Source: Flavobacteriales bacterium (GTDB taxonomy: Bacteria > Bacteroidota > Bacteroidia > Flavobacteriales_D > Sanyastnellaceae). Taken from it: a stretch of DNA of 64,000 nt. Shown in pieces: positions 7,778 through 59,819 of this stretch; the first letter of the stretch is position 1, and each line of letters opens with the position of its first letter. Location of the stretch: the NCBI GenBank assembly GCA_002863125.1, contig PKEB01000022.1, positions 1 through 64,000 of the forward strand. The letters are read 5' to 3'. The notes under the pieces are model-generated. The model was given only the letters and a program-made list of their open reading frames with translations, made no database searches and was not told the DNA's origin. A program made the position numbers and the translations under genes.

Positions 7778-10021
7778 ATGAACGCCTCGACAGCACCGGC
7801 CACGTTGGAACAAGCCCAAGACATGGGTTTGACGGCAGATGAATTCAAAAAAATCGAAGAAATCCTCGGCCGCACGCCGAATTTCACGGAGATGTGCATC
7901 TACTCCGTCATGTGGAGCGAGCACTGTTCGTACAAGAATTCCATCAAGTACCTCAAGACGCTGCCCAAGGAAGGCCCCCACATGCTCGTCAAGGCGGGAG
8001 AGGAAAACGCCGGAATCGTGGACATCGGCGACGGCTTGGGCTGTGCCTTCAAAATTGAATCCCACAACCACCCCTCCGCATTGGAACCCTACCAAGGTGC
8101 GGCAACCGGCGTGGGCGGCATCAACCGGGACATCTTCACTATGGGCGCGCGCCCCATTGCCCAGCTCAACAGCTTGCGGTTCGGGGACCTCGAGAACCCC
8201 CGCACCAAATGGCTTCTCGAGGGCGTTGTGAAGGGCATCGGCGATTACGGCAACAGCTTCGGTGTACCCATCGTCGGCGGCGAGGTCTTTTTCGATCCGT
8301 GTTACCAGGTAAATCCACTGGTGAACGCCATGTCTGTAGGCATCCTCGAAACCGATAAAATCATCAGTGCCACAGCTTCCGGTGTCGGCAACCCCGTATT
8401 CATCGTGGGGTCGGCCACAGGAAAGGACGGCATTCAAGGAGCGTCATTTGCCTCGAAGGACATTACCGCAGAGAGCGCAGAGGATTTGCCAGCCGTGCAG
8501 GTCGGCGATCCGTTCCAAGAAAAGCTACTGCTTGAGGCGACCCTCGAACTCGCCGCAACCGATTCGGTGCGCGGCATGCAGGACATGGGCGCGGCGGGCA
8601 TCACCTGCTCGACCTCGGAAATGTCAGCTGCCGGTGGAGTGGGGATGGATATTGATTTGGACAAAGTGCCGTTGCGCCAGTCGGATATGCAGCCGTTTGA
8701 AATCCTCCTCAGTGAGTCCCAGGAGCGCATGCTTGTGGTGGTGAAAAAGGGCGATGAAGCGGTCGTAGAAGGCATTTTTGACAAGTGGGATTTGCACGCG
8801 GAATGCATTGGTACGGTCACGGAAGGCAACCAGATTCGCTTCTACAAGGACGGCGACTTGGTGGCCGAGGTGCCAGCCGACACCCTCGTACTAGGCGGCG
8901 GCGCCCCAGTTTATGACCGCGAGTACAGCGAGCCAGCGTGGTACGCTGACGCTCAAGCATGGGATGCCTCGTCGGTACCAGTACCATCGATTGAAGAAGC
9001 CAAAGACATTGCCGATCGCCTGATCCAATCCCCCAACATCGCTTCCAAAAAGTGGGTGTGGGAGCAATACGACAGCATGGTGGGCACCATCAACCGCAGC
9101 ACGAACCGACCTTCCGATGCAGGCGTGGTCAGTGTACGCGGCACCAAAAAGGCCTTGGCGCTCACGGTGGATTGTAACGCGCGTTACGTGGAGATGGATC
9201 CTGAGATCGGGACCGCCATCGCAGTCGCCGAAGCCGCCCGCAACATCAGCTGCTCCGGCGGGGTGCCCAGTGCCATCACCAACTGCTTGAACTTCGGCAA
9301 CCCCTACAACCCGGAGGTGTACTGGCAGTTTGTCAAGGCCATCGAAGGCATGGGCCGATCGTGCCGCCACTTCAATACGCCAGTGACCGGTGGAAACGTG
9401 AGCTTCTACAACCAATCGGCTCAGCCCGACGGTTCAGCCGTAGCCGTTTTCCCGACCCCAACCATTGGTATGGTCGGTGTCATCGAGGACCGCGCCAACC
9501 ACATGTCGCTTGATTTCAAAGAGAAGGGAGAGCTGATCTTCTTGCTCGGTGATGTCACCAACTGCATCAACGCTTCGGAATACCTCGCGAGCATCGCAGG
9601 GGTTGACCGGTCGCCCGCTCCTCACTTCAATTTGGAAGCGGAGGGCAAGGTGCAAGGCTGCGTGCAGAAGGCCATCGACCGGGGCTGCATTCGCGCCGCG
9701 CACGACGTGGCCGACGGCGGCTTGTTCGTGAGCTTGCTCGAGATGGCGATGCCGAACGGACTTGGGTTCGACGTGGTCACCGACGATGACATCCGTTTGG
9801 ACGCGTTCTTGTTCGGTGAAGGACAGGGCCGCATCGTGGTGAGCTGCGAAGAAAACCAGCAGGATCGCCTGCTCGATATCATCGAAGAATTCGATGTGCC
9901 GATTGTGCTGCTCGGTCACGTGACCAAAGGCAAAATCGTCGTCGACAACACGCATTTTGGATTCTGCGAAGAGTGGCGAAATACCTTTGATAATGCCTTG
10001 GAAGAGGAGTTGATGGGTTAA
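7778..10021 (+). CDS. purL: Phosphoribosylformylglycinamidine synthase, PurL subunit
   Basis: Fourth step of purine synthesis: converts FGAR to FGAM with ATP and ammonia. The N-terminal signature [11 protein letters not shown] is near residues 45-55 and the Gly-rich FGAM-synthase blocks ([30 protein letters not shown]) follow in order. At 747 residues it is the small, Bacillus-type PurL lacking the glutaminase domain, so separate PurQ and PurS should exist elsewhere; neither is in this window. The start at ATG 7778 is preferred over the TTG at 7757. Confidence 0.95.
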
Positions 10022-53691: not shown

Positions 53692-54114
53692 TCAACGGCT
53701 CTGGAGTCGCCGCATGTGGCGGTTTCGACTGATGGCGATGCGTAACACATGCGATTCGCTTCGCAGCCGGTCGATGACCTCCGTTGAAAGGGCATCGGAT
53801 GACAAGGTGATGGAGTTGGGCGGCCACGCTTGCATGTCGGCCTCACCGATGACCATGCACCGGAAATATTCGTGCGCTTCGGCAGCGCGCTTCGCCAATG
53901 CTTTGAAGGAGGAATTGCCCTGCATTTCTTCATCGACAATGAGCCATGCCGATTGGTGCTTGGCGTTGGCATGAACAAATTCCGCATCCGACACATCGGC
54001 GTCAGCAAGGGCGTGTGCTTCGGAAAAATCCCGAATGCGTTCCGCAAAGCTTTCGCTTTCGGCGTTAGTTCCGAAGGCGACCCAAATGAGCGGGGTGGAG
54101 TTAAAGGGTGTCAT
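53692..54114 (-). CDS. Unknown protein, 140 aa, divergent from the signalling cassette
   Basis: Begins MTPFNSTPLIWVAFGTN. An alpha/beta alternation (PLIWVAFGT, AEFVHANA, SAWLIVDEEMQ, YFRCMVIGEAD, VLRIAISRN) is compatible with a degraded receiver-like or Rossmann-like fold; the WLIVDEEMQG stretch sits where a receiver would have its phospho-Asp. No family recognised. It is separated by 138 bases from the divergent ThiF gene, so it may belong to that system as a regulator, but this is speculation. The open frame to 54240 has no better start. Confidence 0.55.
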   Translation of the reverse strand: MTPFNSTPLIWVAFGTNAESESFAERIRDFSEAHALADADVSDAEFVHANAKHQSAWLIVDEEMQGNSSFKALAKRAAEAHEYFRCMVIGEADMQAWPPNSITLSSDALSTEVIDRLRSESHVLRIAISRNRHMRRLQSR

Positions 54115-54252
54115 GCAGCGTAAATCGCGTTTGGCGAGGTTACGAGTGTGGCCCCGAAAAGGTTGCAGATTCTCACAACGGCCGTGTTCAAAACATAATC
54201 GGAGACGCCGGCCATCCCGGGCTTTACCCACGAACTTCACGTGTTTAACGCC

Positions 54253-55326
54253 ATGTCTATCGACGCCACCTCATTCGCTACACAGCCTGTTCTCTACCGG
54301 CTGGAAAACCGTGCAGAACGCACGGCGTGTGAGGAAGCCATGCGTCACCGGAAAGGCGAGGTCGTCGACACCCTCGAGGAACAGTTGGTGGAGTGGTTGG
54401 TGACGGAAACGCCTTCCTTGCGCCAGCAACCGGACGCCTTGGCCCAGGCTATTCAGGACCAAATTGGCGAAGCAGGCTGGGAGGCATTCGGCACATGGGC
54501 CTGGTTCCCGTGGCGCCAGACGTGGGTGCGTTTGTTGCCCGAAGCGGCATTCATCGCTGTACGCACCAACCGCAACCGCAACAAGATTACTTCCGAGGAG
54601 CAGGACATTCTTGCCGCCAAATGTGTGGGTATCGCCGGGCTCTCGGTGGGCAGTGCATTGACCATGACGTTGGTCATGGAGCGCACGTGTGGCAAGTTGA
54701 AATTGGCGGATTTTGATGTGCTTGAGTTGTCCAACTTGAATCGCATTCCAACCGGTGTGCACCATCTGGGTTTGCCGAAAGCGGTGGCCATTGCACGCGC
54801 CATTGCCGAAGTGGACCCCTACTTCGAGGTGGAGCTGTTTCCGGATGGATTCACGGCAGAAAATGCCGAGGCGTTCATGGAAGGGTTGGACTTCGTTTGC
54901 GATGCGTGTGACCAAGTGCGCGCCAAGGCCAACCTCCGCTGGCACGCCAAGGCCAATGGCATTCCCCTCATCATGGAAACTTCCGACCGTGGCATGATTG
55001 ACATCGAACGCTACGATGAGGAGGATAAACCGTTCTTGCATGGCCGGATTTCCGATACCATGCTCGAAGCCATGCGCAATGCCTCGGCTTGGGAGCCGGA
55101 GTTTTTTGATGCGTTCATCGATGTGAATCAAGCATCGGAGCGCGGCGTGGCGAGTTTGCAAGCCGTCGGGAAGACGCTGGTCGGCTGGCCCCAATTGTAT
55201 ACCGATGTTGCCGCAGGGGGTGCCCATGCGGCCCAAATCATCCGAAGCATTTTTCTCGGTGAGCACATTCCAGATGCTCGTCATTACCTCGAATGGAATG
55301 AGCAGCTCCTTGAATCCGTCAATTGA
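54253..55326 (+). CDS. ThiF/E1-like adenylyltransferase (Rv1355c-type)
   Basis: Soluble 357-residue protein. N-terminal helical region (~1-110) then a ThiF/MoeB-type Rossmann domain: nucleotide loop GIAGLSVGS (126-134), acidic strand ADFDVLELSNLNR (152-164, supplying Asp and the catalytic Asn/Arg), and DACD (217-220) for magnesium. These are the residues that adenylate a C-terminal carboxylate in E1 enzymes. No CxxC zinc pairs and no obvious catalytic Cys are seen. It resembles the ThiF half of Rv1355c-type proteins, which also carry a nitroreductase-like half absent here. Overlaps the acyltransferase start by 29 bases. Confidence 0.8.
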   Translation: MSIDATSFATQPVLYRLENRAERTACEEAMRHRKGEVVDTLEEQLVEWLVTETPSLRQQPDALAQAIQDQIGEAGWEAFGTWAWFPWRQTWVRLLPEAAFIAVRTNRNRNKITSEEQDILAAKCVGIAGLSVGSALTMTLVMERTCGKLKLADFDVLELSNLNRIPTGVHHLGLPKAVAIARAIAEVDPYFEVELFPDGFTAENAEAFMEGLDFVCDACDQVRAKANLRWHAKANGIPLIMETSDRGMIDIERYDEEDKPFLHGRISDTMLEAMRNASAWEPEFFDAFIDVNQASERGVASLQAVGKTLVGWPQLYTDVAAGGAHAAQIIRSIFLGEHIPDARHYLEWNEQLLESVN

Positions 55327-56059
55327 TCGCGCCCGGAAGGCAGAACGCATTGCCGAGGCTGAAGTGCACGTATTTCGTGCCGACCAGCATGCGGACGTCT
55401 GCCATGAATTGGTGGACGGCCACCAGGCGGTGCTCCAGGCGTACGGCATCAAGAAGTTGACCACCTTCAACCGCGATTGGATCGGGAACCCCAACGTCAT
55501 CGTCATTGCTGCGTTGGGGCAAGGAACGGGTGTGGACGGTCGCAGCCGTCGTGTGCTTGGCGGTGCGCGCATGCACGGTGCTCAAACCGTCGACCAACTG
55601 CCGTTGATGAAGGCCATTGGTGGCCTAGACCCCCAACTCGGCGGTCACATGGAACGCTACGTGGAGGAAGGGGCTTTCGAATTGGGGGGTATGTGGAACA
55701 GCATTGAAATGGCCGGGATGGGCGTAGAAGCGACCTTCTTGATCCAGGCGGCCATGGCCACCTTGACCATGGTCGGGGGGCGTCATTTGTTCGCGTTGAC
55801 TTCACCGGTTACCCGGCGCATGCAAAAGCCGCTCGCATTCTTCACAGAAGAGGGCATCGGAGACGATGGGTATTTCACCTACCCCACACCCAAACTGCGA
55901 GCGACCATCGCCCGGTACACCTTCCCCGAACAACTCGAGGATGCCCAGCCCGAGGTTCGGGCGTTGCTCGAAGGCATCTGGCAAGACCCCGAAGGCATGG
56001 TGCACCAGGTGCACGGTCCCAAAGGAGAGTTGAACCTCAGATTCAGACTGGAAGTGTGA
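55298..56059 (+). CDS. GNAT-fold N-acyltransferase (LuxI/FeeM-like)
   Basis: Protein of 253 residues with a GNAT layout: VIVIAAL (~67-73), RVLGGARMHGA (85-95), then ELGGMWNSIEMAGMGVEATF (128-147), the acyl-CoA pyrophosphate-binding turn being around AGMGVEATFLIQAA, and a closing HLFALTSPVTRRMQKPLAF (163-181). The Arg91 and Glu128 positions parallel the conserved Arg and Glu of acyl-homoserine-lactone and N-acyl-amino-acid synthases, but the identity is by pattern only. The start is ATG 55298, overlapping the ThiF gene by 29 bases; the stop overlaps the kinase start by one base. An ordinary acetyltransferase remains possible. Confidence 0.6.
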   Translation: MSSSLNPSIDRARKAERIAEAEVHVFRADQHADVCHELVDGHQAVLQAYGIKKLTTFNRDWIGNPNVIVIAALGQGTGVDGRSRRVLGGARMHGAQTVDQLPLMKAIGGLDPQLGGHMERYVEEGAFELGGMWNSIEMAGMGVEATFLIQAAMATLTMVGGRHLFALTSPVTRRMQKPLAFFTEEGIGDDGYFTYPTPKLRATIARYTFPEQLEDAQPEVRALLEGIWQDPEGMVHQVHGPKGELNLRFRLEV

Positions 56060-58197
56060 TGGCCATTGCCACAAGAACACGGCAGTGGCACGCGTGGTGC
56101 GTTTTGGTGTTCATGGCGGTGGCTACAGCCGGTGCAGCACAATCGCTCATCGGAAAACGCGTCGAGGTCCTGCAAGACTCTTTGCAAGCGGACCTGATGG
56201 GATTGTCCGAAGTCGTTCAATACGATGCGTGGGATCCGGCCAACCAGACCGTGCCGAGTTTGGGCTTATCGGATGACGTGAGTTGGATCCGATTGAAGTT
56301 GGACAGCCGCAGCGAGAACGGCCAGCTCATCGAGATTCAAAATGCCGGCATCGACGAATTGACAGGTTACATGGTCTGCGACGGCAAGGTAATTGCGACC
56401 TACAACCGCGGCGTGTTGCAGGATGGAGCCAATGACGGGGCCTTCGGCACGTACCCCACTTTTCCCATTCCATTGGTCGAGTGCGGGGAATTGTATGCAG
56501 TGTTCCGCATGAAGTCCTCCAAACCGCTGCTGTTGCCGATGCGCATCGCAGGTCCGCGTGAGGTGTTGAACGATGCCCACCAGCGGGATATCTTGTTCGC
56601 CGCTTATTTCGGTGTGATTCTGGTCATGCTGCTCTACAACCTCTTCCTGTTTTTCAGTGTGGGGGACCGGAGTTACCTGGAGTATTCGCTGTTCATTTTC
56701 ATGATCGGCGGGACCCAGCTCGTGCTCAACGGCTACGCGCCGTATTTCAACGTGGAGGCGTGGCCCTGGTTTAACACGCGCATCACCCACTTTTTCGGGG
56801 TGTTCAGCGGGTTAACGACCATTGTTTTTGCCCAAAACTTTCTCCGACTCAGCCGCTACGTTCCCTGGCTGCACAAGCTGCTGAACGGGTATTTTGTTGT
56901 GTACCTCGTGGCGCTCGCGTTGGCCATATCTGGCCAGCTCGTGTGGGCGTACAACGTGATCAATTTCTGTGCGGCAGCGATTTTCTTTTTCATCCCCGGC
57001 GCGATTATCACCATGCGCAAGGGATACAGCCCCGCGAAGTATTTCCTGCTCGCCTTTTCAATTTTTATTGGTGCCGTGGTGGTCTTTGTCATGAAAGACG
57101 CCGGGGTCATTCCCTACAATGCGTGGACTTTCTTCGCCTTGCCGTTGGGCAGTGCGATTGAAATGGTGCTGCTCAGCCTTGCGTTGGCCAGCCGCATCAA
57201 TCAGCTCAAAAAGGAAAGTGCCCATGCCCGGGAAGAGCAATTGCGCATCTCCCAAATCAACGAGCGCATGGTGCGGGAGCAAAACACGAAACTTGAGGAA
57301 CGAGTCCGCGACCGCACGGCTGATCTCCAGGAGGTCAATGCCAACATGCGCAGAACCTTGGAAGAATTGCAGTCTGCGCAGCAACAGTTGGTGCAATCGG
57401 AAAAGCTGGCATCCATCGGTCAGTTGACAGCGGGGATTGCCCACGAACTGAACAACCCCATTAATTTCGTTTCATCCAGCGCGCAATCGTTGCGTCGGGA
57501 TTTTGAAGACCTCAACGCCATCATCGACCTCATCAAGGCCATGGATCCTGCGGCGGACGATTTAAATGAGCAGGTCAATGGGGTAAAAGAGAAGCTGTCC
57601 CAGCTGGACATTGAGTTCACCCAACAGGAAATTGAGGAACTGCTCAACGGCATTGAGGACGGCACCGTCCGAACCTCAGAAATCGTGAAAGGCCTGCGCA
57701 TTTTCAGCCGCATGGACGGGGACAATTTTATCCAGGCCCAACTCAACGAATTGATCGAATCCACCCTCATTGTCTTGCGAAGCAATTTCAAGGATGCGGC
57801 TGTGTTGCAATTGGATTTGGGTGAAGAGATGCCGCCCGTGATGTGCCAGCCCGGGCAGTTGAACCAGGTTTTCATGAATATCGTTACCAACGCCATTCAA
57901 GCAATGGACGGACTCGGTCGGGATGCAGAGGAGAACATTTTGTCCATCGCAACGGACCGCGTAGAGAGCATTGGGCAGGCATGGGCAGAGGTGCGCATCA
58001 AGGACGTCGGTCCCGGGATGTCCGAGGCCGTGAAATCGCAGATTTTCGATCCGTTTTTTACCACGAAGCCGGTGGGCGAAGGGACAGGCCTGGGCTTGAG
58101 CATCGTGATGGGCATATTGCGCGATCACAATGCTGAAGTCGAAGTCGAGTCCGAAGAAGGCGTGGGCACTGAATTCATCATCCGATTCCCATTATGA
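56059..58197 (+). CDS. 7TMR-DISM sensor histidine kinase
   Basis: Membrane kinase of 712 residues: leader (~1-27), a periplasmic beta-sandwich of the 7TMR-DISM extracellular type (~30-165, a possible ligand site), seven predicted spans (~180-380), a coiled coil (~380-445), HisKA with phospho-accepting His462 in GIAHELNNPINF, and a HATPase domain with NQVFMNIVTNAIQAM (N box), DVGPGM (G1) and FFTTKPVGEGTGLGLS (G2). All catalytic boxes look intact. Start ATG 56059 overlaps the acyltransferase stop; stop overlaps the response regulator by 4 bases. Confidence 0.95.
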   Translation: MAIATRTRQWHAWCVLVFMAVATAGAAQSLIGKRVEVLQDSLQADLMGLSEVVQYDAWDPANQTVPSLGLSDDVSWIRLKLDSRSENGQLIEIQNAGIDELTGYMVCDGKVIATYNRGVLQDGANDGAFGTYPTFPIPLVECGELYAVFRMKSSKPLLLPMRIAGPREVLNDAHQRDILFAAYFGVILVMLLYNLFLFFSVGDRSYLEYSLFIFMIGGTQLVLNGYAPYFNVEAWPWFNTRITHFFGVFSGLTTIVFAQNFLRLSRYVPWLHKLLNGYFVVYLVALALAISGQLVWAYNVINFCAAAIFFFIPGAIITMRKGYSPAKYFLLAFSIFIGAVVVFVMKDAGVIPYNAWTFFALPLGSAIEMVLLSLALASRINQLKKESAHAREEQLRISQINERMVREQNTKLEERVRDRTADLQEVNANMRRTLEELQSAQQQLVQSEKLASIGQLTAGIAHELNNPINFVSSSAQSLRRDFEDLNAIIDLIKAMDPAADDLNEQVNGVKEKLSQLDIEFTQQEIEELLNGIEDGTVRTSEIVKGLRIFSRMDGDNFIQAQLNELIESTLIVLRSNFKDAAVLQLDLGEEMPPVMCQPGQLNQVFMNIVTNAIQAMDGLGRDAEENILSIATDRVESIGQAWAEVRIKDVGPGMSEAVKSQIFDPFFTTKPVGEGTGLGLSIVMGILRDHNAEVEVESEEGVGTEFIIRFPL

Positions 58198-58730
58198 TCA
58201 ACGTACTCTACCTCGACGATGAGGCGCACAACCTGACGGCGTTTCGAGCAGCCTTTCGGCGGGATTTTCAGGTGCACGTCACCACCGAACCGACCGATGC
58301 GGTGCGGATCCTCAAGGAGCATCCCATCGAGGTCATCATCTCGGACCAGAAAATGCCCAAGCTGAGCGGGGTGGAGTTTTTTGAGCTCATCGCGCCCGAT
58401 TACCCCGACCCGGTGCGGATGCTCCTCACGGGCCACGCGGATATCGATGCGGTCATTGACGCGATTAACAAAGGGCAGATTTACAAGTACATCGCCAAAC
58501 CTTGGAACGAATCCGAGTTGCGGGATCTGGTGAATGAGGCGTCGCAATTGTACCACGACCGCCAGGCCATCGTACTGCGGGGCGAGGACTTGCAGGACCG
58601 CATGAGCAAAGCCGAGCAGGAGGCCGTGAAAATCCAATCCCTCACAGCGGGGAAAGACGCACTTTCTTCTGAAGAAACCGCGCGGGTATTTGACCTGGCC
58701 AACGCCATTCAGCGCTTGCTGCAGGCGTAA
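58194..58730 (+). CDS. Single-domain response regulator with helical tail
   Basis: Receiver of 178 residues: Asp8/Asp9 acidic pair, phosphorylation Asp51 in IISDQKMP, Thr79 in LLTGH and Lys102 in YKYIAKPW, so it should accept phosphate. The rest (~125-178) is a charged coiled coil with no DNA-binding, GGDEF, HD-GYP or other output motif. The receiver resembles those of RpfG-type proteins but the output domain is missing. The partner kinase is almost certainly the gene just upstream, with which it overlaps by 4 bases. Converges directly with the M42 gene. Confidence 0.93.
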   Translation: MINVLYLDDEAHNLTAFRAAFRRDFQVHVTTEPTDAVRILKEHPIEVIISDQKMPKLSGVEFFELIAPDYPDPVRMLLTGHADIDAVIDAINKGQIYKYIAKPWNESELRDLVNEASQLYHDRQAIVLRGEDLQDRMSKAEQEAVKIQSLTAGKDALSSEETARVFDLANAIQRLLQA

Positions 58731-59819
58731 TCAGCGGATGTACTTGAAGTCCTCGCCGGGTTGGATGTTCTTCAACGTGGCAAGGATCAACTTGATGCAA
58801 TTCTCCACGTCGTCACGGTGCACCATCTCAACGGTGGTGTGCATGTAGCGAAGTGGCAGACTGATCAACGCACTGGCCACGCCTTTGTTGGAGTAGGCAA
58901 ACGCGTCGGTATCAGTGCCGGTAAAACGGCTGGCAGCCATGCGTTGCAACGGAATTTTCTCCGCATCTGCGGTGTCGATGATGCGCTGCAAGAGGTTGTT
59001 TTGCACGGCCGGTCCGTAGGTCACGCCCGGACCTTTCCCCGCAGCCACGTCGCCGTTGTCGATTTTGTTCATCATCGGCGTGTGGGTGCAGTGGGTTACG
59101 TCGGTTACAATGGCCACATCCGGTGAAATCCGCTCCGCGATCATTTGCGCCCCGCGCAATCCAATCTCTTCTTGAACCGAATTGGTGATGTAAAGGCCAA
59201 ACGGCAACTTGGCGCCCTCTTCGTGCAGCAGACGGGCCACTTCTGCAATCATGAAACCCCCGGCGCGGTTGTCCAGCGCACGAGCTACGTACCAGTCCTT
59301 GTTTAAGACCATGAAGGTGTCCTCGTAGGTGACCACGCACCCGACGTGGATGCCCATCTTCTCAACCTCTTTCTTGTCCTTGGCGCCCACATCAAGGAAG
59401 ATGTTCTTCATCGTTGGTGCCTCCTCTTTGCCCGCGGTGCGGGTGTGAATTGCGGGCCACCCGAAGACGCCTTTGACGATGCCTTTTGGCGTGTGGATGT
59501 CGACGCGCTTGGACGGCGCGATCTGGTGGTCGCTGCCTCCGTTGCGCTTCAGGTAGATGTATCCGTCGGCGGTGATGTAGTGAACAAAGTAGCTGATCTC
59601 ATCGGCGTGTGCTTCGATTACCACCTTGTAGGGAGCGTCGGGATTGACCACTCCAACGACCGTGCCGTAGGTGTCGACGATGTGTTCGTCGATGTACGGA
59701 CGGATGTAGTCCAACCACAGTTGCTGCCCGCTGCTTTCGAATCCGGTCGGGCTTGCGTTATTGAGGTAAGCTTCGAGGAATTTCTCGGAAGCTTTATTGA
59801 GAATCGTCTTCTTTGCCAT
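58731..59819 (-). CDS. M42-family metalloaminopeptidase
   Basis: Cytoplasmic dinuclear-metal peptidase of 362 residues, of the M42 (glutamyl/tetrahedral aminopeptidase) group. Expected ligands are present: VIEAHADEIS (His, ~70), ARALDNRAGG (Asp, ~180), QEEIGLRGAQ (catalytic Glu pair, ~213), VTDVTHCTHTP (Asp ~236) and YMHTTVEMVH (His, ~330). It trims N-terminal residues from peptides. A hairpin terminator of the upstream acyl-CoA dehydrogenase gene lies directly before its start. Confidence 0.93.
   Translation of the reverse strand: MAKKTILNKASEKFLEAYLNNASPTGFESSGQQLWLDYIRPYIDEHIVDTYGTVVGVVNPDAPYKVVIEAHADEISYFVHYITADGYIYLKRNGGSDHQIAPSKRVDIHTPKGIVKGVFGWPAIHTRTAGKEEAPTMKNIFLDVGAKDKKEVEKMGIHVGCVVTYEDTFMVLNKDWYVARALDNRAGGFMIAEVARLLHEEGAKLPFGLYITNSVQEEIGLRGAQMIAERISPDVAIVTDVTHCTHTPMMNKIDNGDVAAGKGPGVTYGPAVQNNLLQRIIDTADAEKIPLQRMAASRFTGTDTDAFAYSNKGVASALISLPLRYMHTTVEMVHRDDVENCIKLILATLKNIQPGEDFKYIR

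Follow-up and report, generated by a model that had tools for sequence, protein, structure and literature searches.

A four-gene Flavobacteriales cassette joining putative oxazolone-type enzymes to a sensor kinase and receiver

Gene content of the locus

The window analysed here is a stretch of 64,000 nucleotides from a Flavobacteriales bacterium of the family Sanyastnellaceae (assembly GCA_002863125.1, contig PKEB01000022.1, positions 1 to 64,000, forward strand). Positions 54253-58730 hold a cassette of four genes encoding a ThiF-like (E1-like) cyclase, an acyltransferase, a sensor histidine kinase of the 7TMR-DISM type and a short receiver (Table 1). Judged by homology, the cassette suggests that a group of Bacteroidota makes a small ring-shaped lipid and ties it directly to a signalling pathway.

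The initial annotation had described four overlapping genes, and the coordinates of the open reading frames (ORFs) and all three overlaps were confirmed: in gene order they measure 29 bases, 1 base (TGATG) and 4 bases (ATGA). Such overlaps would imply obligate co-expression of the four genes. The ThiF start at ATG 54253 aligns with the Met of the nearest relatives; the ORF listing also permits GTG 54241. Across the 13 loci of the same genus (L033-L045) the 29-base ThiF-acyltransferase overlap and the 4-base kinase-receiver overlap are present in all 13, and the 1-base acyltransferase-kinase overlap in 11, with gaps of 5 bases (L041) and 23 bases (L045) in the other two. The ThiF-acyltransferase junction also overlaps in all 17 more distant loci (L046-L062), where the starts were chosen by script. 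At an E threshold of 0.001 the ThiF gene is the sole match to PF00899 in the 2.27-Mb genome and the kinase gene the sole match to PF07695. Because each is the only match in the genome and the two are neighbours, their pairing is more than chance.

Table 1. Coordinates of the cassette and adjoining features in the window
Feature	Position	Strand	Basis
ThiF-like (E1-like) cyclase	54253..55326	+	NF005901, PF00899; desaturase-free form of Rv1355c/TrzS family
FeeM/AHL-synthase-fold acyltransferase (predicted fold)	55298..56059	+	AlphaFold2 model, Foldseek, VIA; sequence family none
7TMR-DISM sensor histidine kinase	56059..58197	+	Pfam domains, motifs
Kinase DISMED2 sensor	56155-56547	+	Pfam
Kinase 7TMR-DISM membrane domain	56587-57195	+	Pfam
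Kinase HATPase	57853-58194	+	Pfam
Receiver, 65-aa tail without output domain	58194..58730	+	PF00072, acceptor residues
Pseudo-receiver gene, 140 aa	53692..54114	-	predicted receiver fold; genus alignment
Region between the divergent genes; blocks conserved in the genus at ~54140-54196	54115..54252	.	alignment of 13 genus sequences

The ThiF-like cyclase

Over profile positions 6-339 of 722, the ThiF gene matches the NCBIfam model NF005901 (the Rv1355c family) with E 4.3e-108. Its score of 362.5 bits lies under the full-length cut-off of 476 because the ThiF half alone is present. The PF00899 domain is above its Pfam cut-off (E 2.7e-21). In the catalytic region, seven residues (D153, D155, N163, R164, K176, D220 and K225, counted from ATG 54253) are identical in homologues from Rhodococcus, Mycolicibacterium and Streptomyces, as is expected of a ThiF-like cyclase with an intact ATP site, and D220 is the likely counterpart of the mutated D217 in the M. 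smegmatis enzyme. In the characterised system of this family, TrzAS (Rv1356c-Rv1355c), TrzA N-acylates Trp, and TrzS cyclises the N-acyl tryptophan to an oxazolone, which it then desaturates (PMC12856293).

The acyltransferase

Neither Pfam (to E 1) nor NCBIfam yields any family for the acyltransferase of the window. Among 27 members of its family, Pfam finds FeeM in one (weak, E 0.017) and Acetyltransf_1 in three (best 2e-06). Compared with the sequences of solved structures, the single protein has no match and its profile has only a chance match (conglutinin, E 0.8). Since sequence searches gave no family, the fold was settled by structure prediction. The AlphaFold2 model has a pLDDT of 86.7 and a pTM of 0.85. 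In Foldseek the top 13 rows are all FeeM or acyl-homoserine lactone (AHL) synthases, with FeeM at E 2.2e-07. VIA-align 2 ranks FeeM first (Z 16.3, root mean square deviation 2.5, 173 aligned residues), followed by LasI (15.4) and BjaI (14.8). The GNAT fold and the comparison with LuxI and FeeM proposed in the initial annotation are thereby borne out at the level of the model, with FeeM and LuxI-type enzymes as the nearest solved structures. The lead of the FeeM/AHL synthases in this ranking is modest, since general acyltransferases come next, at Z 14.7 and below. A profile comparison with hhalign links the family weakly (probability 79, E 1.6e-05) to a hypothetical protein whose gene neighbours a TrzS homologue on a plasmid of Rhodococcus. 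TyzA, the acyltransferase of a characterised oxazolone pathway, likewise has FeeM and BjaI among its nearest structures (PMC10404671). The predicted fold and the overlapping junction are what would be expected of an N-acyltransferase adjacent to an oxazolone cyclase.

In one relative (L095, 11026-12476) a single cassette contains two tandem acyltransferase genes, perhaps reflecting two acylated products or a heteromer.

The sensor kinase and its receiver

The kinase passes the Pfam cut-offs for 7TMR-DISMED2, 7TMR-DISM_7TM (3.8e-43), HisKA and HATPase_c, and H462 and the N, G and F boxes are present. It is therefore a 7TMR-DISM histidine kinase with the membrane domain, the sensor and the kinase motifs all in place. 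The receiver matches Response_reg (PF00072) over residues 4-113, with D8/D9, D51, T79 and K102 intact. The motifs of the ThiF and kinase genes had been called intact from the outset, in agreement with these results.

The regulator had also been described as lacking an output domain. This is correct for the window, and short receivers likewise occur in L048, L058 and L060-L062. It does not hold as a general state: a longer gene combining receiver and kinase lies within the fetched stretch at 55 of the 67 class-level loci, and the only one of these genes scanned with Pfam has receiver, HisKA and HATPase domains. The short receiver of the window therefore looks like a reduced form.

Linkage of the enzymes and the kinase across relatives

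Among the relatives, those named are metagenome-assembled genomes with the titles Flavobacteriales, Crocinitomicaceae, Bacteroidetes or simply bacterium. Genes of the relatives were called with chosen score thresholds as longest-start ORFs (lengths are upper bounds), and unlabelled intervening genes are not shown. Contig ends truncate the kinases of L093 and L131, which were scored as present; L032, whose contig begins beside the acyltransferase, was left out.

ThiF and acyltransferase genes are neighbours in all 30 loci from L033 to L062, and a 7TMR kinase lies in the cluster in 29 of them. The exception is L053, an order-level locus in which an unrecognised ORF replaces the kinase, up to the contig end. 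A scan of the order found the family in 111 of 299 genomes; only part of these loci was fetched, and linkage was not counted. A phylum-wide draw found the family in 11 of 395 genomes (E 1e-40), each with the kinase in the cluster (11/11). The class-wide draw found it in 70 of 395 genomes, corresponding to 39 of the 197 genera of the window's class. All 70 class-level loci were examined, and four (L120, L133, L154, L155) are cut downstream by contig ends, which leaves 66 testable. ThiF, acyltransferase and 7TMR kinase stand together in 62 of the 66, so the synthase is co-encoded with a sensor kinase across relatives, as in quorum-sensing synthase-kinase pairs. The finding that would have refuted the initial annotation, enzyme genes lying apart from the kinase in most related genomes, was thus not made. 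Genes of the 7TMR-DISM type are rare (33 matches to PF07695 in 21 hand-picked genomes, 0-3 each) and chance adjacency is accordingly negligible.

The linkage is broken in L117, L126, L138 and L147. L138 (genome G627) has ThiF and acyltransferase only; three 7TMR-DISM genes lie at other sites of that genome. In L117 (G615) the ThiF-oxidase gene is all that is present, and its genome has no 7TMR-DISM match yet contains a lone tailed receiver. In L126 (G633) the ThiF-oxidase gene stands alone, and the acyltransferase, kinase, regulator and divergent receiver are found together elsewhere in the same genome (L151). L147 (G694, 7971-9080, minus strand) is a remnant: the N-terminal part of ThiF continues in frame into the C-terminal part of the receiver-kinase gene, with the receiver adjoining. 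It appears as if the middle of a cassette had been deleted, though an assembly error may also account for it.

The missing flavin desaturase

Of the 70 class-level loci, 46 have a flavin-oxidase domain fused to ThiF, as in TrzS, and 24 do not. The latter include the remnant L147 as well as L133, which was counted as desaturase-free and whose contig ends 246 bases past the ThiF stop, making a separate oxidase gene beyond the contig possible. In the window's cassette a flavin-dependent oxidase of the nitroreductase fold, fused or adjacent in known oxazolone pathways, is absent. The oxidase profile also gave zero matches at E 1e-8 in the window's own genome and in 21 other members of the genus. 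Three other nitroreductases are encoded elsewhere in the genome. Because the oxidase is absent, the cassette is placed as a variant of the oxazolone pathway and not as a full member.

The ThiF tree comprises 100 rows, of which 56 are fused and 44 are not. Along it the desaturase state changes at least 13 times, and at least four of these changes are forced by well-supported branches. The tree was built with a quick method and has many weak branches, and it does not tell the direction of change. Five loci were left out as truncated, from the same genomes or a remnant (L043, L088, L089, L090, L147). The kinase stays while the desaturase changes, which suggests that it belongs with the acyltransferase-cyclase core and not with desaturation.

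Cyclisation without desaturation has a precedent. With TrzS, a cyclised, non-oxidised intermediate accumulates under limited oxygen or in the R540A variant (PMC12856293), which makes an oxidase-free cyclase plausible.

The divergent receiver-like gene and the control region

Upstream of the cassette and divergent from it, the gene at 53692-54114 probably belongs to the same system, as its position and predicted fold indicate. Its 140-aa product could be aligned across 13 genus sequences and lacks the acidic pair and the conserved Lys. The AlphaFold2 model (pLDDT 90.0) gives VIA rows that are mostly receivers, with Z 12.1. Foldseek is less specific, with a best E of 1.2e-04 to a CpaE-like protein and further matches to TIR and other three-layer folds. 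Compared with the receiver gene of the relatives, the protein gives a profile E of 0.0047 and hhalign probabilities of 0.4 and 1.3, and the link in sequence is unproven. The receiver decays within the window's family (L046, L055-L057).

Within the fetched stretches, a small receiver gene occurs in 59 of the 67 class-level loci, mostly divergent beside ThiF. All 59 have an EFxLRQ-like tail on at least one small receiver (50 by the strict pattern, 9 by eye). When 16 genomes were searched with the receiver profile (E 1e-15), 13 of the 14 matches that reach its end were in cassettes, four of these 13 being members of the profile itself; the remaining one, in G615, is at a contig end. The conserved tail is NxQLEFxLRQxLLS-like and mostly forms the extreme C-terminus, for example in L080 (7701-8171, minus strand).

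The 138-base intergenic region contains blocks conserved genus-wide, which fits a shared, regulated promoter region. A composite motif built from these blocks, searched for with up to 3 mismatches, occurs once in the genome (54161-54195). That site is the operon itself, and a regulon search with the motif thus found no regulon. A 12-base piece of the motif alone was found once in the window against 0.52 expected, which is not above chance. At the opposite end of the cassette, the receiver stop codon directly abuts the stop of a convergent ORF (58731-59819), with zero bases between them (58730-58731), and the same is seen in L033. The convergent ORF presumably encodes an M42-type peptidase.

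A putative oxazolone pathway with its own two-component system

We consider it fairly probable that the operon directs the synthesis of an N-acyl amino acid, which is activated with ATP and closes to an N-acyl oxazolone (azlactone), and that this synthesis is coupled to the two-component system encoded alongside. The FeeM-like enzyme would N-acylate an amino acid from acyl-CoA or from an acylated acyl carrier protein, as its fold suggests. The ThiF-like enzyme would then adenylate the carboxylate, whereupon the five-membered ring would close. In most relatives the fused flavin domain would go on to desaturate the ring. As this domain is gone from the window's lineage, the expected product there would be a saturated oxazolone, or the acyl amino acid formed by its hydrolysis. 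The 7TMR-DISM kinase, placed next in the gene order, may respond to the product or to the pathway's state and phosphorylate the receiver, to which the divergent pseudo-receiver would be an extra element. The likeliest role is that of a lipid signal or a stress-linked metabolite under feedback control.

The two halves of this proposal differ in strength. The synthesis half is most probably oxazolone-type, because a ThiF protein of the TrzS family is combined with an acyltransferase of predicted FeeM-like fold, as for TyzA; perception of the product by the kinase is plausible. The initial annotation had proposed a module for synthesis and perception of a small molecule, and the synthesis part is right as far as homology tells. 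It had thought of a lipidated signal or an envelope-modification monitor; the chemistry is now more closely defined, since the enzyme pair resembles the oxazolone pathway of OxzAB, TyzACB and TrzAS and not a route to protein lipidation or envelope modification.

Several observations weigh against the proposal. With no desaturase of that kind in the genome, the full known oxazolone pathway is absent, and the Trz study did not detect saturated cyclised species in vivo (PMC12856293). Nor has an oxazolone yet been observed in acyl-tyrosine producers that have ThiF genes (PMC12479983). General GNAT acyltransferases follow closely behind the FeeM/AHL synthases in the structural ranking, and the shared predicted fold leaves the substrate of the acyltransferase unfixed, the more so as the protein belongs to no sequence family. 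Pfam detected no DNA-binding output in the cassette genes scanned, a search in which our own profiles were not aimed at such domains. The broken linkage in the four class-level loci and the replaced kinase of L053 also count here.

The kinase might instead sense envelope or antibiotic stress in the periplasm and control the enzymes, in which case the lipid would be a stress metabolite and not a signal. In several proteobacteria oxazolones were induced by antibiotics at subinhibitory levels, and a link of oxazolones to stress has been drawn (PMC12856293); the DISMED2 domain is predicted to face the periplasm, and L117 keeps a ThiF-oxidase gene in a genome without any PF07695 match. A kinase that is purely a regulator would, however, be expected to have a DNA-binding output, and none was seen in the scanned cassette genes; the kinase linkage also persists while the desaturase changes. 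We regard this explanation as unlikely, though it is the rival to be taken most seriously. Rather improbable is a product that is no oxazolone but an N-acyl amino acid or conjugate, with the desaturase-free ThiF protein activating an acyl amino acid that is then passed to an amine, or acting on something else. The missing desaturase would agree with this, as would the producers of acyl dehydrotyrosine that have ThiF and nitroreductase genes and no oxazolone, in which the role of ThiF was called "enigmatic" (PMC12479983). The ThiF gene nevertheless falls in the ring-making TrzS family and keeps the catalytic residues checked.

The resemblance of ThiF to E1 enzymes leads to two further alternatives. 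ThiF could be a true E1 acting on the C-terminus of a cassette protein, for which the EFxLRQxLLS-like tail of the small receivers, present at every class-level locus with such a gene and hardly found outside cassettes in the profile search, would be the candidate. Yet at least six tails run past the motif (L105, L120, L123, L133, L134, L135) and the divergent protein of the window has no such tail, for which reasons this is kept as a minor, very improbable alternative; the characterised members of the ThiF family moreover act on small molecules (PMC12856293, PMC10404671, PMC12479983). Least credible of all is a defence system of the E1-E2 type. The ThiF domain does show generic similarity to E1-E2 models (best E 9.5e-12), but the match to the Rv1355c family is far stronger, and none of the seven window genes scanned with Pfam has an E2, ubiquitin-like or JAB domain, leaving the operon without the partner that E1-E2 or CBASS-type systems have.

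Comparison with known systems

The closest counterpart of the cassette is TrzAS, which synthesises N-acyl tryptazolones, with a ThiF cyclase of the same NCBIfam family and an adjoining acyltransferase. The window's genus differs in having no desaturase, and its acyltransferase is at best remotely similar, as judged on the Rhodococcus homologue and not on TrzA itself. The operon adds a sensor kinase and receivers, whereas trzAS neighbours genes of cyclic di-GMP turnover (PMC12856293). TyzACB and OxzAB, which make N-acyl tyrazolones, combine an acyltransferase, a ThiF cyclase and a flavin oxidase, the last of which the window lacks, and the TyzA model resembles FeeM and BjaI as does the model presented here (PMC10404671); the comparison with OxzAB draws on the accounts in PMC12856293 and PMC10404671 only. 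The terms "histidine kinase", "response regulator" and "two-component" have zero occurrences in PMC12856293, and a histidine kinase is not mentioned in the available text of PMC10404671 and PMC12479983. Searches of the open-access literature, judged by title and listing, gave no report that connects a histidine kinase in Bacteroidota with an oxazolone or with a pair of ThiF and acyltransferase (the founding OxzAB paper falls outside this coverage). Relative to the oxazolone clusters described in the accessible parts of PMC12856293, PMC10404671 and PMC12479983, the dedicated two-component system, its class-wide spread and the oxidase-free form are new.

Similarities to quorum sensing are found at the level of fold and of arrangement. 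The acyltransferase shares its predicted fold with the N-acyl amino acid synthase FeeM and with the LuxI-type enzymes LasI and BjaI, at an identity of only 10-12% in those alignments. It resembles LuxI AHL synthases in fold and not in sequence profile, as no LuxI-type Pfam family matches it, and LuxI systems are not known to have a ThiF partner. In LuxM-LuxN, an autoinducer synthase is encoded beside its own membrane kinase. The likeness lies in an acyl small-molecule synthase next to a membrane kinase; the window differs in its enzyme families, its extra ATP-dependent cyclase and its 7TMR-DISM sensor. It is possible, and proposed here only tentatively, that the cassette belongs to a Bacteroidota signalling system chemically parallel to AHL quorum sensing, made up of an N-acyl oxazolone, a 7TMR-DISM kinase, receivers and an optional desaturase whose repeated loss changes the signal. 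If so, an enzyme of FeeM/LuxI fold and the ATP-dependent cyclase would produce an oxazolone with a five-membered ring like that of homoserine lactone, and the kinase would detect it at the membrane and pass the signal on through the receivers, in a system spread over many Bacteroidota families.

The physiological role of oxazolones was described in 2025 as a major unresolved question, with cell-cell signalling offered as a possibility (PMC12856293). Oxazolone-type enzymes with a dedicated kinase and receivers would give a concrete handle on it: with the kinase as candidate receptor or controller, the role becomes accessible to genetics in a member that can be cultured. For lineages without the desaturase a different product, a saturated one, is to be expected.

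Outside Bacteroidota, none of the three actinobacterial plasmid loci examined has a kinase of this type beside its ThiF gene. On a Streptomyces plasmid (L067, NZ_CP109451, 4917-6715) an oxidase-free ThiF homologue overlaps a different GNAT gene (PF13302), without a kinase. On a Rhodococcus plasmid (L066, NZ_CP096567, 1916-6064) a GGDEF gene lies near the TrzS homologue, which recalls the cyclic di-GMP genes beside trzAS.

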